Notes under the pieces: model-generated
Databases searched by the model: none
Told to the model about the DNA's origin: nothing
Seen by the model: only the letters and a program-made list of their open reading frames with translations
Translations under genes and position numbers: made by a program
Shown: positions 29,326 through 39,588 of the stretch, piece after piece
Layout of the letters: every line of letters starts with the position of its first letter
How positions within the stretch are numbered: the first letter of the stretch is position 1
Assembly (NCBI RefSeq): GCF_030719295.1
Contig: NZ_CP120997.1
Span: 4,847,501-4,911,500, forward strand
DNA from: Streptomyces sp. Mut1
GTDB lineage: Bacteria > Actinomycetota > Actinomycetes > Streptomycetales > Streptomycetaceae
Length of the DNA: 64,000 nt
Reading direction: 5' to 3'

Positions 29326-29456
29326 GCTCGGCGTGGGTCGCCTCTGGGGGTACGGGCCGTCCGAACGAGCACGCTAACCAACGCGGGGTGCCGCTGGGAA
29401 GCTTGATGTTCGATATGCCCGATACATTTTCGTGACCTTTTCGGAGCGGGGCCGAG

Positions 29457-29478
29457 TGTCAGTGGGGGGCTCTAGACT
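29457..29478 (+). promoter_or_regulatory. DNA-damage (RecA-NDp / PafBC-type) promoter of pcrA
   Basis: TGTCAGTG (29457-29464), an 8-nt spacer and TAGACT (29473-29478) match the tTGTCRgtg-N8-TAnnnT motif of the LexA-independent actinobacterial DNA-damage promoter, apart from the leading T (here G). The -10 ends 9 nt before the pcrA ATG, so the 5' leader is only a few nucleotides long. Confidence 0.75.
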
Positions 29479-29487
29479 CGGGGAGCG

Positions 29488-31959
29488 ATGAGCAGCCTCT
29501 TTGACGACAGTTTCCTGACCGGCCTCCAGTCCGAGGAGGAAGGGCCCCCGCCGCCCCCCGAGGACTCCGCACCCGAAGCGGTGCCGGAGGACCTTTTCGC
29601 GGGCGTGTTCGACGGCCCGCCGCCGCGCGACGCGTACTACCGCGACGGTGCCCACCGCCCCGTCATCGACCCCGCGGCCCTGCTCGACGGGCTGAACACC
29701 GAGCAGCGCGCCGCCGTCGTGCACGCCGGGTCCCCGCTGCTCATCGTCGCCGGGGCCGGCTCCGGCAAGACCCGGGTGCTGACCCACCGCATCGCCCACC
29801 TCCTGGCCGAGCGCGGTGTGCACCCCGGCCAGATCCTGGCGATCACCTTCACCAACAAGGCCGCCGGCGAGATGAAGGAGCGCGTCGAGCAGCTGGTCGG
29901 GCCCCGGGCCAACGCCATGTGGGTCATGACCTTCCACAGCGCGTGCGTCCGCATCCTGCGCCGCGAGTCGAAGAAGCTCGGCTTCACCTCCTCGTTCTCG
30001 ATCTACGACGCGGCCGACTCCAAGCGGCTGATGGCCCTGGTCTGCCGCGACCTGGAGCTGGACCCGAAGCGCTACCCGCCGAAGTCGTTCACGGCCAAGG
30101 TCTCCAACCTCAAGAACGAGCTCATCGACGAGGAGACCTTCGCCGGGCAGGTCGCGGGGGGTACCTCCCATTCGGGCGAAGCCGAGAACGGGGGAGGTTT
30201 CGAGAAGACCCTGGCCCAGGCGTACGCGATGTACCAGGCCCGGCTGCGCGAGGCCAACGCGCTGGACTTCGACGACATCATCATGACGACGGTCCACCTG
30301 CTCCAGGCCTTCCCCGACGTCGCCGAGCACTACCGCCGCCGCTTCCGCCACGTCCTGGTCGACGAGTACCAGGACACCAACCACGCCCAGTACACCCTCG
30401 TACGCGAGCTGGTCGGCCCGGCCGGTCCCGAGGACGCCCCCGCCGAGCTGTGCGTCGTGGGTGACGCGGACCAGTCGATCTACGCCTTCCGGGGCGCGAC
30501 CATCCGCAACATCCTCCAGTTCGAGGAGGACTACCCGGACGCGACGACGATCCTGCTGGAGCAGAACTACCGCTCCACCCAGACGATCCTGTCCGCCGCC
30601 AACGCGGTCATCGAGCGCAACGAGAGCCGCCGCCCCAAGAACCTGTGGACCAACGCCGGCACCGGCGCCCGCATCACCGGCTACGTCGCGGACACCGAGC
30701 ACGACGAGGCGCAGTTCGTCGCCGAGGAGATCGACCGCCTCACCGACGCGGGCGACGCCAAGGCCGGAGACGTAGCCGTCTTCTACCGGACGAACGCGCA
30801 GTCCCGTGTCTTCGAGGAGATCTTCATCCGCGTCGGCCTGCCCTACAAGGTCGTCGGCGGAGTGCGCTTCTACGAGCGCAAGGAGGTCCGGGACGTCCTG
30901 GCCTACCTCCGGGTCCTCGCCAACCCCGAGGACACCGTCCCCCTCCGCCGCATCCTGAACGTGCCCAAGCGCGGCATCGGCGACCGTGCCGAGGCGATGA
31001 TCGACGCCCTGTCCCTGCGCGAGAAGATTACCTTCCCGCAGGCGCTGCGCCGTGTGGACGAGGCGTACGGCATGGCCGCCCGTTCGGCCAACGCCGTGAA
31101 GCGGTTCAACACGCTGATGGAGGAGCTGCGCACGGTCGTGGAGTCCGGCGCGGGCCCTGCCGTCGTGCTGGAAGCGGTCCTGGAGCGTACGGGCTACCTC
31201 GCCGAGCTCCAGGCATCCACCGACCCGCAGGACGAGACCCGCATCGAGAACCTCCAGGAGCTGGCCGCCGTCGCGCTCGAATTCGAGCAGGAGCGCGGCG
31301 AGGAGGAGGGGGCGGGCACCCTCGCCGAGTTCCTGGAGAAGGTCGCGCTCGTCGCCGACTCCGACCAGATCCCCGACGAGGACGAGGACGGCTCCGGCGT
31401 CATCACGCTGATGACCCTGCACACGGCGAAGGGCCTCGAATTCCCGGTGGTCTTCCTGACCGGCATGGAGGACGGCGTCTTCCCGCACATGCGGGCGCTG
31501 GGCCAGGTCAAGGAGCTGGAGGAGGAGCGCAGGCTCGCGTATGTCGGCATCACCCGCGCCCGCGAGCGCCTGTACCTGACCCGCGCGGCCATGCGCAGCG
31601 CCTGGGGCCAGCCCTCGTACAACCCGCCGTCGCGGTTCCTGGAGGAGATCCCGGACCAGCACCTGGAGTGGAAGCGCAAGGGCCCGATGGCCGCCCCCGC
31701 CGGGCCGACCTCCGGCATCACCTCGTCGCTCTCCGCCTCCCGCGCCCGCTCCGGCCCTTCGGGCTTCGCCACCCGGCGGACCTCGGACCGGCCGACGATC
31801 ACCCTGGTGGCGGGCGACCGGGTCACACACGACCAGTTCGGTCTGGGCACGGTGACGGCGGTCGAGGGCGTCGGCGACCAGGCGAAGGCCACGGTCGACT
31901 TCGGCGACGACCGCCCGAAGAAGCTGCTCCTGCGGTACGCGCCGGTGCAGAAGCTCTGA
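29488..31959 (+). CDS. pcrA: ATP-dependent DNA helicase PcrA/UvrD
   Basis: An 823-residue superfamily 1A helicase, 3'-5', acting in nucleotide-excision repair and plasmid replication. An acidic 60-residue N-terminal extension precedes LNTEQRAAVVHAGSP (Q motif). Then come Walker A VAGAGSGKTRVLTHR, motif Ia TFTNKAA, Walker B LVDEYQDTN, motif III GDADQSIYAFRGA, motif IV QNYRS, motif V TLHTAKGLEF and motif VI YVGITRARERLYLTRA. The C-terminal basic tail ends in the Tudor-like RNA-polymerase-binding domain (VTHDQFGLGTVTAVEG). Codons about 222-236 are a palindromic in-frame insert. A DNA-damage promoter lies just upstream and a terminator follows. Confidence 0.97.
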   Translation: MSSLFDDSFLTGLQSEEEGPPPPPEDSAPEAVPEDLFAGVFDGPPPRDAYYRDGAHRPVIDPAALLDGLNTEQRAAVVHAGSPLLIVAGAGSGKTRVLTHRIAHLLAERGVHPGQILAITFTNKAAGEMKERVEQLVGPRANAMWVMTFHSACVRILRRESKKLGFTSSFSIYDAADSKRLMALVCRDLELDPKRYPPKSFTAKVSNLKNELIDEETFAGQVAGGTSHSGEAENGGGFEKTLAQAYAMYQARLREANALDFDDIIMTTVHLLQAFPDVAEHYRRRFRHVLVDEYQDTNHAQYTLVRELVGPAGPEDAPAELCVVGDADQSIYAFRGATIRNILQFEEDYPDATTILLEQNYRSTQTILSAANAVIERNESRRPKNLWTNAGTGARITGYVADTEHDEAQFVAEEIDRLTDAGDAKAGDVAVFYRTNAQSRVFEEIFIRVGLPYKVVGGVRFYERKEVRDVLAYLRVLANPEDTVPLRRILNVPKRGIGDRAEAMIDALSLREKITFPQALRRVDEAYGMAARSANAVKRFNTLMEELRTVVESGAGPAVVLEAVLERTGYLAELQASTDPQDETRIENLQELAAVALEFEQERGEEEGAGTLAEFLEKVALVADSDQIPDEDEDGSGVITLMTLHTAKGLEFPVVFLTGMEDGVFPHMRALGQVKELEEERRLAYVGITRARERLYLTRAAMRSAWGQPSYNPPSRFLEEIPDQHLEWKRKGPMAAPAGPTSGITSSLSASRARSGPSGFATRRTSDRPTITLVAGDRVTHDQFGLGTVTAVEGVGDQAKATVDFGDDRPKKLLLRYAPVQKL
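30155..30198. repeat. Palindromic element inserted in frame in pcrA
   Basis: CCTCCC (30164-30169) and GGGAGG (30192-30197) flank TTC/GAA and GGG/GCC pairs around a CGAA loop, making an imperfect stem-loop. The GGGGTACCTCCC start and GGGGGAGG end resemble a small palindromic repeat I recall as recurrent in Streptomyces genomes. It encodes a Gly/Ser/Glu/Asn-rich loop (AGGTSHSGEAENGGGFE) in a place where helicases are variable. Confidence 0.6.
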
Positions 31960-36403: not shown

Positions 36404-38086
36404 TCACCCGTCTTCCGGGGGCGGGGACAGCTCGCTGTCCATCGTCGCGCGTAGGCGCAGGGTGGAGACCAGGCGCTGGAAGGCCTCCGACCAGTAGCCG
36501 TTCGCGCCGGGGGAGGCGTCCGCCGGTTCGGCGGGGGTGGTGGTCAGGACCTCCAGGCGGGTTGCCTCGGCCGGGGTCAGGCAGCGTTCCGCCAGGCCCA
36601 TGACGCCGCTGAAGCTCCAGGGGTAACTGCCCGCGTCCCGGGCTATGTCGAGGGCGTCGACCACCGAGCGCCCGAGCGGCTCCGCCCAGGGCACCGGGCA
36701 GACCCCGAGCAGCTGGAACGCCTCCGACAACCCGTGCGCGGCGACGAAGTCGGCCACCCAGCCCGCCCGTTCCGCAGGGGGCAGCACCGCCAGGAGCTTC
36801 GCCCGCTCGGCGAGCGACGCCGTGCCGGGGCCGTTCGACGGGGGCGTCGAAGGGGGGCCGAGCAGGGCCCGCGCCCATGCCTCGTCGTTCTGCCGCACCG
36901 CCGCCCGGCACCACGCCGCGTGCAGTTCCTCGCCCCAGCCGTCCGCGACGGGCATCGCCACGATCTCCTCCGCGCCGCGCCCCCCGAACCGCGCGGGCCA
37001 GACGGAGAGCGGGGAGGCCTCCACCAACTGGCCGAGCCACCACGACCGTTCGCCCCGGCCGGACGGCGGGAGAGCCACCACCCCGTCGCGCTGCATCTCC
37101 GCGTCGCACTCGTGCGGGGCCTCCACCGCCACGAACGGCTTGTCACCGGTCAGCCCGGGGCTGACGCAGGACAGCGCGCGGTCCGCCATCCGGCGGGCAA
37201 GCGCCGAACCGGGCAGTGCGGACAGCAACTCGGCGGCGGTCGCCCGGACATTGCGGCTGCGGTCCGCGAGCGCCTGTTCGAGGAACTCCTCGTCCGCGCA
37301 GGACAGCCCCGTGCGCAGCGAGTCGACGAACATGAGCCGGTCCTCGGCCCGTTCCGTCCTCCAGGTGGTGGCGAGCAGCGCGCGGGCCGCCTCCGCGTCC
37401 CGCGCCCGTACAGCCCCGAGCAGGGCGACCCGCTCCGCGAACAGGCCCTCCTCCCACAGCCGTCGCACCGCTTCCGGATCGGTGAGGGACGGCAGCAGAC
37501 CGCTTCCGGACGCACCGCGCAGCGCGAACTTCCACTCCGGGTTCAGCCCGGCCAGCCACAGCCCGCGCGGCCCCGCGAACTCCAGGGCCTGGGGCCGCAG
37601 ATCGGTCCTGGCCCTGGCGGCGTCCAGCAGGGCGGGCAGCGCGGAGTCGGGCGCCCGGTAGCCGTGCAGGTTGGCGGTGGCCAGCCACTGCGGGATGAGC
37701 TCCGTCAGGTCGGGGGCCGTACCGCGTCTGCCGCCGGAACCGCCTGCCGCGGCCCGGTCCGCGAGGAGCTGCGCCAGCCGGCCGCGGGCGGCCTCGGGCA
37801 GCGGCGGGCGGGGGTCGTCGGGCGCGGGCGCGGGCCGGGGCGAGGCGGCGGCGGGCAGGAGCCCGGCCCGGCGCCGCACGGTGTGCAGCGCGGCGGCGTC
37901 CAGCAACGCCGAGGCCGCCCCGTCCGGGCCGGCGCCCGATGCGCCCCCTGGCGGGCGGCGGTCCGTGCCGAGCAGGGCCGAGGTGACCAGGTCCTCCCAC
38001 GACGTGGCCGCGACCGCGTCGGCGAGGTCCCCCGACGCGGATGCGGACGCGGACGCGGGTGTGGTGGGTGAGGTGGTGCGGGACAT
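36404..38086 (-). CDS. DUF5691-type protein of the MoxR-VWA cluster
   Basis: A 560-residue, mostly helical cytosolic protein with HEAT-like stretches (for example RSRNVRATAAELLSALPGSA and EEFLEQALADR). ATG 38086 follows GGAGG by 4 nt. After a Ser/Thr/Ala leader, the conserved N-terminal motif WEDLVTSALLGTDRRPP matches my memory of the DUF5691 family found beside SWIM and MoxR genes. It lies 29 bp downstream of the SWIM gene on the same strand, so both come from the same promoter. Its biochemical role is unknown; adaptor or scaffold activity is a guess from the helical repeats. Confidence 0.78.
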   Translation of the reverse strand: MSRTTSPTTPASASASASGDLADAVAATSWEDLVTSALLGTDRRPPGGASGAGPDGAASALLDAAALHTVRRRAGLLPAAASPRPAPAPDDPRPPLPEAARGRLAQLLADRAAAGGSGGRRGTAPDLTELIPQWLATANLHGYRAPDSALPALLDAARARTDLRPQALEFAGPRGLWLAGLNPEWKFALRGASGSGLLPSLTDPEAVRRLWEEGLFAERVALLGAVRARDAEAARALLATTWRTERAEDRLMFVDSLRTGLSCADEEFLEQALADRSRNVRATAAELLSALPGSALARRMADRALSCVSPGLTGDKPFVAVEAPHECDAEMQRDGVVALPPSGRGERSWWLGQLVEASPLSVWPARFGGRGAEEIVAMPVADGWGEELHAAWCRAAVRQNDEAWARALLGPPSTPPSNGPGTASLAERAKLLAVLPPAERAGWVADFVAAHGLSEAFQLLGVCPVPWAEPLGRSVVDALDIARDAGSYPWSFSGVMGLAERCLTPAEATRLEVLTTTPAEPADASPGANGYWSEAFQRLVSTLRLRATMDSELSPPPEDG

Positions 38087-38115: not shown

Positions 38116-39510
38116 TCAGATGAGCGGTACGGTCTCGACGCCGGCGAGCCCCGCCCGCGGGGCCACCGCGGGCCAGGCGGCGAGCGGGTCGAAGCCGCGG
38201 TGGCCGCACTCGCCGAAGACGGTGAGAGGCCCGCCGCCCGAGACCGCGACGAGCTTCCAGAGCGCCGGCCGGGACAGCGCGGCGGCGGTGACGGGCAGCG
38301 CCTCACGGCCCTGCGCGTCCACCAGCTGCCAGCCGTCCACGCCCGGCACGGGTATGACGTCGCGCAATGTCACCGGCCAGGACTCCAGCCACGGATCGTC
38401 GCCCAGCGCCCGCCCGTACGCGGTGATCGCCTCGCCGACCGGCACCCCCGGCGGGGGCGTACCGGCCGGCTCGGGCACACCGAACCGCTCGCCCAGCTCG
38501 GCCCGCAGCCGGCCGGACCCCGGATGGGGCGTCAGCTCGGCGTCGATCGTCACCCCCACGGGCAGGGCGTGCCCCGGGGAGCGCCCGGCCGCCCCGAAGG
38601 ACAGGAGCAGCGCCGTGCGGCCCGACTCCCCGCCGTACAGCCAGATGCGGCGGGTGACGATCTTGCCCTCGGGGGTGTCGTACTGGGCGAGGACCAGCCA
38701 GCGGTCGCGGACCGGCGGCCCCTCCGCCGGGGCCGGCAGGCCCACGCGGGTGCGGACCGTGGCCGCCAGCGGCTGCGGCAGGCGGTCGAGGCCCAGCCAG
38801 GCCGTGTCCAGCAGATGGAGCAGCGCGCACTCCTCCAGCAGCCGCACCGGCCAGCCGGGGCCCGACGCCGCGACCGACCCCAGCTCCCGCACCCGGCCCG
38901 CGAGACCCGGCGCCTGGGCGTCGACCATGCGGGCCGCCGTCTCCTCCCACAGCCCGTACCCCGCCTGCTCGACCGACGCGAGCCCCCCGCGCAGCAGGTC
39001 GGTCAGCCGCTGCTCCAGCTCCCGCGCACCGCCCCCTATCCGCTCCGCGCGCCTCTCCGCGCGCTTGCGCGCGGCCACCGGGTCGGCCGGCCCGTCACCC
39101 CCGGCGGCGGGCCGCGCCTTCGCCTCCGCGCGGTCGCGGCGGCCGGCCAGCCACTCCTCGGCCCAGTCCGGCGGTGACCCGGCGGGCACAGCCGTGCCGT
39201 CGGCCGCGCGCAGCAGCAACAGACCCAGCGCGTGTTTGCAGGGGAACTTCCGGCTGGGGCAACTACAGCGGTACGCGGGGCCGGTGGTGTCGACCACCGT
39301 CCGGTACGGCTTGCTGCCGCTCCCCTTGCACAGCCCCCACACCGCACCCGTGCCGTCCAGCCCGGTGTCCGACCAGGACGCGGACGCACCGAGCTTGTTC
39401 CCCGCCTTGCGTGAGGCGTCGTCAGGAGCCAGGGCCAATACCTGCTCCACCGTCCAGCGCGCCGCCGGAGCAGCGGCGCCCAAGGGTTCTCCCCCGTCAG
39501 TCAGCAGCAT
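38116..39510 (-). CDS. SWIM zinc-finger protein of the MoxR-VWA cluster
   Basis: A 464-residue protein. The SWIM zinc finger is CSCPSRKFPCKHALGLLLL at about residues 82-100 (C-x-C...C-x-H). SWIM domains bind DNA or protein. The region around it (KAGNKLGASASWSDTG, and GLCKGSGSKPY) is typical of bacterial SWIM proteins; the rest is helical followed by beta-rich, without a known domain. ATG 39510 is chosen because no Shine-Dalgarno precedes it and a complete damage-type -10 lies 7 nt upstream, predicting a leaderless mRNA. It is divergent from the MoxR gene and operonic with the DUF5691 gene. Confidence 0.85.
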   Translation of the reverse strand: MLLTDGGEPLGAAAPAARWTVEQVLALAPDDASRKAGNKLGASASWSDTGLDGTGAVWGLCKGSGSKPYRTVVDTTGPAYRCSCPSRKFPCKHALGLLLLRAADGTAVPAGSPPDWAEEWLAGRRDRAEAKARPAAGGDGPADPVAARKRAERRAERIGGGARELEQRLTDLLRGGLASVEQAGYGLWEETAARMVDAQAPGLAGRVRELGSVAASGPGWPVRLLEECALLHLLDTAWLGLDRLPQPLAATVRTRVGLPAPAEGPPVRDRWLVLAQYDTPEGKIVTRRIWLYGGESGRTALLLSFGAAGRSPGHALPVGVTIDAELTPHPGSGRLRAELGERFGVPEPAGTPPPGVPVGEAITAYGRALGDDPWLESWPVTLRDVIPVPGVDGWQLVDAQGREALPVTAAALSRPALWKLVAVSGGGPLTVFGECGHRGFDPLAAWPAVAPRAGLAGVETVPLI

Positions 39511-39517
39511 GCCAACG

Positions 39518-39540
39518 ACGTTAGGCCGCCCCACTGACAA
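39518..39540 (-). promoter_or_regulatory. Full-match DNA-damage promoter driving SWIM-DUF5691
   Basis: Read on the minus strand, TTGTCAGTG, an 8-nt spacer and TAACGT fit the RecA-NDp / PafBC motif tTGTCRgtg-N8-TAnnnT at every defined position. The -10 ends 7 nt before the ATG, so the +1 should fall on the start codon. Confidence 0.8.
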
Positions 39541-39565
39541 TCGCCCTGACCTGCGCAAAGGCCAA

Positions 39566-39588
39566 TTGTCAGTGCCATGGTGCACGGT
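39566..39588 (+). promoter_or_regulatory. DNA-damage-type promoter driving MoxR-DUF5682-VWA
   Basis: TTGTCAGTG (39566-39574), an 8-nt spacer and CACGGT (39583-39588) give a perfect upstream element and a -10 differing from TAnnnT only at its first base. With the minus-strand copy it forms the inverted repeat CACTGACAAT / ATTGTCAGTG separated by 23 nt. The mRNA would have a leader of about 45 nt containing the GGAGGGGG ribosome site. Confidence 0.7.

Follow-up and report, generated by a model that had tools for sequence, protein, structure and literature searches.

Divergent RecA-NDp-type promoters between a SWIM gene and a MoxR gene suggest that a conserved Streptomyces gene cluster belongs to the DNA-damage response

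Promoters of the RecA-NDp or P1 type are known from recA of Streptomyces rimosus and from the mycobacterial PafBC regulon, and consist of the element TTGTCRGTG, eight free bases (N8) and a -10 hexamer. PafBC is activated by single-stranded DNA (ssDNA), and both the -26 motif and a complex of PafBC with RNA polymerase on this motif have been reported (PMC11804915). The in vivo binding sites of PafBC carry the motif (PMC6789036), and the consensus bound by PafBC is very similar to RecA-NDp (PMC8223512). In S. coelicolor, SCO6735 has a RecA-NDp promoter and is induced fivefold by UV (PMC5087735), and SIGffRid tied TGTCAGT motifs to 67 genes of this species (PMC2375139). An initial search suggested that the PafBC motif of M. 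smegmatis is not conserved in S. venezuelae, and the same source states as an open question whether Streptomyces has a RecA/LexA-independent response (PMC9380542).

Probable S. coelicolor counterparts of the genes compared here also have a history in work on DNA topology. Upon TopA depletion, sco4804, coding for a protein of 815 aa at a location conserved in the genus, rises about eightfold together with its adjacent genes (PMC8120823). Disruption of the gene, which is polar on sco4805, lowers topA expression, and the topA promoter becomes more active when sco4804 is overexpressed, with no direct action on topA found (PMC8120823). TopA depletion also raises recA, recX, dinP, dnaE2, uvrA and polA (PMC6637917). 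SCO4803-SCO4805 are induced by TopA depletion like DNA-repair genes; the authors favour LexA for the repair genes (PMC6637917) and supercoiling for sco4804, presenting the three genes as a supercoiling-linked influence on topA (PMC8120823). In the available text of PMC8120823, the term "DNA damage" has no occurrence and no DNA-damage role is given for SCO4803-SCO4805. Pairs of MoxR and VWA proteins elsewhere are chaperone-like (PMC9976466, PMC10585395), and MoxR-vWA ternary conflict systems combine such a pair with a third component (PMC7159879).

The window analysed here is a stretch of 64,000 nucleotides from Streptomyces sp. Mut1. It contains five neighbouring genes, transcribed in two directions from a common spacer, see Table 1. 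The MoxR protein is identical to MoxR of Streptomyces sp. ATexAB-D23. The gap between the SWIM stop and the DUF5691 start is 29 nt, and the MoxR/DUF5682 and DUF5682/VWA junctions are both ATGA overlaps, which makes two operons, SWIM-DUF5691 and MoxR-DUF5682-VWA, likely. In S. coeruleorubidus and similar loci the order is MoxR, DUF5682 (~800 aa), VWA, ~2 kb and then sucC; this fits the order SCO4803, SCO4804, SCO4805 and sucC, the last of which we take to be SCO4808 in S. coelicolor. From gene order, position near sucC and length, SCO4803-SCO4805 are probably the counterparts of MoxR-DUF5682-VWA.

Table 1. Features of the divergent cluster and of the pcrA comparison site, in positions of the window.
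Feature	Position	Strand	Details
DUF5691 protein	36404..38086	-	Pfam PF18944, E 2.5e-176
SWIM zinc-finger protein, 464 aa	38116..39510	-	Pfam PF04434, 26.2 bits against a cut-off of 19.6
SWIM ATG, predicted leaderless start	39508..39510	-	7 nt past the -10
Putative RecA-NDp/PafBC-type promoter of SWIM-DUF5691	39518..39540	-	-26 TTGTCAGTG 39540-39532, N8, -10 TAACGT 39523-39518
Putative RecA-NDp/PafBC-type promoter of MoxR-DUF5682-VWA	39566..39588	+	TTGTCAGTG 39566-39574, N8 ending in GGTG, -10 CACGGT 39583-39588
MoxR-type AAA+ ATPase, 370 aa	39639..40751	+	PF07728, E 2.6e-37
DUF5682 protein, 809 aa	40748..43177	+	PF18934, E 1.7e-297
VWA (CoxE-like) protein, 407 aa	43174..44397	+	PF05762, E 1.1e-59
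Comparison site GTGTCAGTG-N8-TAGACT, one change	29456..29478	+	9 nt before the pcrA ATG, 10 kb from the promoter pair
pcrA	29488-31959	+	PcrA equivalog TIGR01073, 1083.7 bits against 911.2

No paper naming DUF5682 or DUF5691 was found in the literature searched. In E. coli, a comparable set of MoxR, DUF5682-like, VWA and SWIM genes presumably stands together as yehL-yehM-yehP-yehQ. The likeness to the ternary conflict systems lies in the MoxR and VWA pair with a further component, and DUF5682, DUF5691 and SWIM have no occurrence in the available text of PMC7159879. Among the five proteins, bpMoxR remained below its cut-off and PADLOC gave no match at E <= 0.01. In those systems the third component is a VMAP, iSTAND, FtsH or beta-propeller protein with variable effectors, and a search with the general Pfam profiles gave no such match over the cut-off in the five genes. 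By analogy, the MoxR-VWA pair is probably a chaperone that remodels its substrates at the expense of ATP, in which DUF5682 would be the adaptor and the SWIM protein the recogniser of the target.

The original prediction had described an inverted repeat with a 23-nt gap in the spacer, and this is what we find: two ten-base arms, CACTGACAAT (39532-39541) and ATTGTCAGTG (39565-39574), are perfect inverted copies of each other. The -26 element TGTCRGTG is present in both divergent copies, each time as TTGTCAGTG. The minus copy, read from 39540 to 39518 as TTGTCAGTG-GGGCGGCC-TAACGT, is an exact match to the consensus with a TAnnnT -10 eight bases downstream, and the full match claimed for this strand is thereby confirmed. 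The plus copy (39566-39588) deviates from TTGTCNGTG-N8-TANNNT at a single position, as its hexamer CACGGT has no T at the first place. The SWIM ATG lies 7 nt past TAACGT and the MoxR ATG lies 50 nt past CACGGT, the latter preceded by a GGAGGGGG stretch that resembles a ribosome-binding site. The locus thus shares the motif, its spacing and the -10 with the RecA-NDp/P1 promoters. It differs from them in having two copies back to back, one with a constant CAnnnT -10 after GGTG, and in the genes served, which form an unstudied chaperone-like cluster.

To follow the two sites through the genus, we searched 119 genomes of the order for MoxR. Of these, 116 gave a match at E <= 1e-60, three of them with only a paralogue of ~45% identity. 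Within the 104 genomes of the same genus, the orthologue proper (at least 85% identity) exists in 101, only the paralogue in 2, and neither in 1. Motifs were counted upstream of MoxR, within 450 nt for the plus copy and 1500 nt for the minus copy. Each copy is exact in 96/101 Streptomyces orthologues and both are exact in 93/101; the remaining 8 genomes also have both copies, and all ten non-exact ones (5 plus, 5 minus) have the first T changed. The -10 is CAnnnT in 96/96 exact plus copies and TAnnnT in 96/96 exact minus copies, with an ATG exactly 7 nt on in 94/96 of the latter. At the plus promoter GGTGCA is the consensus at a level of at least 95%. Among 556 named loci, the best 80 were compared as well; they probably share members with the set of 101 orthologues and give a similar picture: 77 have the exact plus copy, 74 the exact minus copy and 72 both, while the rest have one mismatch, two of these inside TGTCAGTG. 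Here the SWIM ATG is found at 7 nt in 70/74 loci and one nt nearer in the other 4. According to the column profile, the flanks of both elements are mostly unconserved. We also observe that GGTG before the CAnnnT -10 is nearly constant in Streptomyces and in the sister family, which is more than contact with PafBC or sigma alone seems to require.

In the genus, the two elements lie anywhere between 25 and 700 nt apart, and therefore the site is better described as two promoters than as one operator; the view of the inverted repeat as a single unit does not survive the comparison. If a local repressor or an autoregulator, for example the SWIM protein, bound the repeat as a palindromic operator, this would explain the perfect ten-base arms and the common spacings of 36-38 nt (45/93) and 49 nt (19/93). 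However, besides the variable distance, the -10 of each arm stays at exactly 8 nt from it, the motifs of the sister family point the same way before separate genes, and a single copy of the element stands before recA and uvrB and, with one change, before pcrA. We consider an operator very improbable.

The plus-strand site proposed with CACGGT is indeed there, but its hexamer is a constant CAnnnT variant and not a decayed -10. The missing T at the first -10 place could be taken to mean that only the SWIM promoter is real and that the MoxR arm is decayed or a chance half-site. This is hard to reconcile with a plus element that is exact in most orthologues, always followed by CAnnnT and nearly always with GGTG before it, and that is kept in 4/5 sister-family genomes. 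Sites with a CAnnnT -10 are also found elsewhere in the genome, before dinB, polA, a Lhr-like helicase gene and a topoisomerase-A gene, and we give the half-site hardly any credence.

In the window, the loose pattern alone is weak evidence: TTGTCNGTG-N8-TANNNT with up to two mismatches has 5 matches against a shuffle mean of 2.17, and at least 5 were reached in 6/100 shuffles. The core TGTCAGTG-N8-nAnnnT occurs three times, namely as the divergent pair and once before pcrA. At the level of the 8 Mb genome, the exact form TTGTCNGTG-N8-TAnnnT has 24 sites against 0 for the reversed control, and the open place is always A or G. There are 51 copies of TTGTCAGTG against 5 of the reversed word, and in 41/51 the hexamer at a distance of exactly 8 nt conforms to nAnnnT, having A in its second and T in its sixth position, where about one coincidence is expected (2%, assuming independent bases and a GC content of 71.5%). 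The genome scan for nAnnnT sites gave 56 sites in all, of which 15 have TTGTCGGTG. A start codon lies 6-8 nt past the -10 at 13/24 exact sites and 12/20 further sites, against 4.7% for random positions of two genome stretches.

DNA-repair genes are frequent behind these sites. Twenty of the 24 genes at exact sites were scanned by NCBIfam, six of them also by Pfam, and 9/20 code for repair or replication proteins: ung, a RarA-like AAA protein, ruvC, a RecD2-type helix-hairpin-helix protein, uvrB, a DnaN-type clamp, a UvrD-like helicase, recA and a DinG/YoaA-like helicase. The other 11/20 have no evident repair role (PhoH-like, folC, an ECF sigma factor, tnpB, PrsW, DUF2797, an ABC-permease-like protein, another SWIM protein and three without a match). 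A further 20 sites lack the T at the start of the -10; ten of their genes, picked by hand, were scanned, and 6/10 are repair or replication genes; the ten comprise dinB, polA, a second polymerase-A-family protein, a Lhr-like helicase, a gyrase/topoisomerase IV A subunit, a polymerase III epsilon-type exonuclease, NADAR, a pentapeptide protein and two proteins with methyltransferase domains. The SIGffRid TGTCAGT set contains types also found here, namely dinP, ung, uvrB, DNA polymerase I, dinG and dnaN, and its available text states no link to MoxR or SWIM (PMC2375139). The five-gene cluster may already be among the 67 S. coelicolor genes of that set.

Three further sites deserve mention in their own right. 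The gyrase/topoisomerase IV A-subunit gene (L191) stands 68 nt behind TTGTCAGTG-N8-CACAAT and is another link of the gene set to DNA topology. A gene for a TnpB-type RNA-guided nuclease (L019) has an exact RecA-NDp promoter with the ATG 7 nt on, and L193 looks alike. An exact RecA-NDp site also lies 6 nt ahead of the ATG of a third SWIM-domain gene (L001, 1501-1523; L147, 9751), which is followed by a gene with matches to DUF7824, DUF7825 and DUF6493, of which only DUF7824 is over the cut-off.

As in the systems with known RecA-NDp/P1 promoters, PafB and PafC are encoded in the genome together with repair genes that carry the element. Both (locus L144) lie 1.7 kb from a Pup-ligase-family gene and match the solved PafB and PafC chains with E 9.4e-55 and 3.8e-54. 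The genome has 7 WYL matches in all, and the element could be real and yet read by another regulator, either ClgR or another WYL protein. ClgR recognises the mycobacterial P1 promoter, and clgR mutants, like pafBC mutants, show impaired upregulation of recA (PMC5656591). Against this stand the in vivo PafBC sites (PMC6789036), the PafBC-RNA polymerase complex on the motif (PMC11804915) and the close PafB and PafC homologues encoded here, and we regard a different reader as improbable. A strict SOS box (GAACN4GTTC) was found in 0/101 orthologues in the 300 bp before MoxR, a range that takes in the SWIM side only at short spacers. This is a weak test, and the strict form did not turn up at recA either.

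Outside the genus, the promoter in front of orthologous clusters is mostly conserved in the sister family and largely missing further away, so the expected conservation holds for Streptomyces and most of the sister family and fails for other families. In the sister family, all genes run in one direction in the order SWIM, DUF5691, MoxR, DUF5682, VWA. In 4/5 genomes (loci of 14-16 kb), TTGTCAGTG-GCGTGGTG-CACAAT is located between SWIM and DUF5691, i.e., with the same GGTG/CAnnnT variant as in Streptomyces. Before the SWIM gene, an exact site is present in 2/5 and a site with the first base changed in a third; a scan of the whole locus L152 gave neither site. The exact motif is absent from 16/17 orthologous clusters of other families, where in two of the 17 the SWIM start is off the contig, and exact TAnnnT sites are also few in these genomes as a whole (0-12). 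One of the 17 has a DUF5682 identical to that of Planomonospora. The tie between motif and cluster is therefore a feature of this order, or it was lost elsewhere. One sister-family genome (G017, e.g. L294-L303) has 78 exact motif matches. Most of them read TTGTCGGTG-N8-TAGCAT and lie within a longer recurring sequence that has an A/T-rich leader, and they could belong either to a dispersed repeat or to a large family of promoters.

Many Streptomyces also have a second MoxR of ~45% identity. Its operon has the order SWIM-like protein, 472-aa protein, VWA, MoxR and 931-aa protein, where the SWIM-like head protein has CxH-type cysteines by eye and no Pfam match. A TAnnnT motif site heads this operon in 20/22 Streptomyces (18/20, one with the first base changed, and 2/2; L148, L149, L274-L293). 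The site was not found at another MoxR locus (L150) nor at the sister-family copy (L153). It can be speculated that machines of SWIM, VWA and MoxR proteins are a dedicated arm of the PafBC response in Streptomyces, that they use ATP to remodel proteins which are stuck on DNA under damage or topological stress, and that ssDNA sensing by PafBC explains the "supercoiling" induction of sco4804. This idea is tentative, and we would put its chances somewhat below even.

The near letter-for-letter conservation of the promoters through the genus suggests that the five-gene cluster is part of the DNA-damage response. From the motif and its conservation, the context of the gene set and the presence of the PafBC genes, we infer with good confidence a LexA-independent, PafBC-driven co-induction of both operons together with the repair genes, in promoter type as well as in response. 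In the proposed mechanism, ssDNA arising from damage or topological stress would activate PafBC. The activated factor, on RNA polymerase with the housekeeping sigma, would contact TGTCAGTG as the -26 element of each of two independent divergent RecA-NDp-type promoters in the spacer, and TAnnnT or CAnnnT eight bases further would serve as the -10. On the minus strand, transcription would plausibly start at or next to the A of the SWIM ATG, giving a predicted leaderless SWIM-DUF5691 mRNA. On the plus strand, it would start ~44 nt before the MoxR ATG and give a MoxR-DUF5682-VWA mRNA with a leader of that length, if the predicted start is right. The five proteins would then be produced together with RecA, UvrB, Pol I, Pol IV and PcrA.

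The cluster could instead respond to DNA supercoiling as such, with an incidental motif, as was proposed for sco4804. This agrees with the rise of sco4804 upon TopA depletion and with the indirect shift of topA promoter activity by the sco4804 level (PMC8120823). However, recA, recX, polA, dinP and uvrA are induced by the same depletion (PMC6637917), and the motif is present here at recA, at polA and at a dinB-type gene. We find supercoiling as the sole signal unlikely, if less so than a different reader of the element. The supercoiling and PafBC readings can also both hold, since ssDNA from hypernegative DNA would activate PafBC. For the DNA-damage reading, the TopA-depletion data are indirect evidence.

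Promoters of the PafBC type are a simple candidate cause of the induction of sco4804 by TopA depletion. For the repair genes that rise in the same depletion, PafBC as an alternative to LexA fits their promoters. A RecA/LexA-independent response in Streptomyces becomes likely in view of the genes marked by the motif and of the PafBC genes. The placement of the cluster and of the second MoxR-VWA operon among the genes with DNA-damage promoters would give a concrete condition under which these proteins can be studied.
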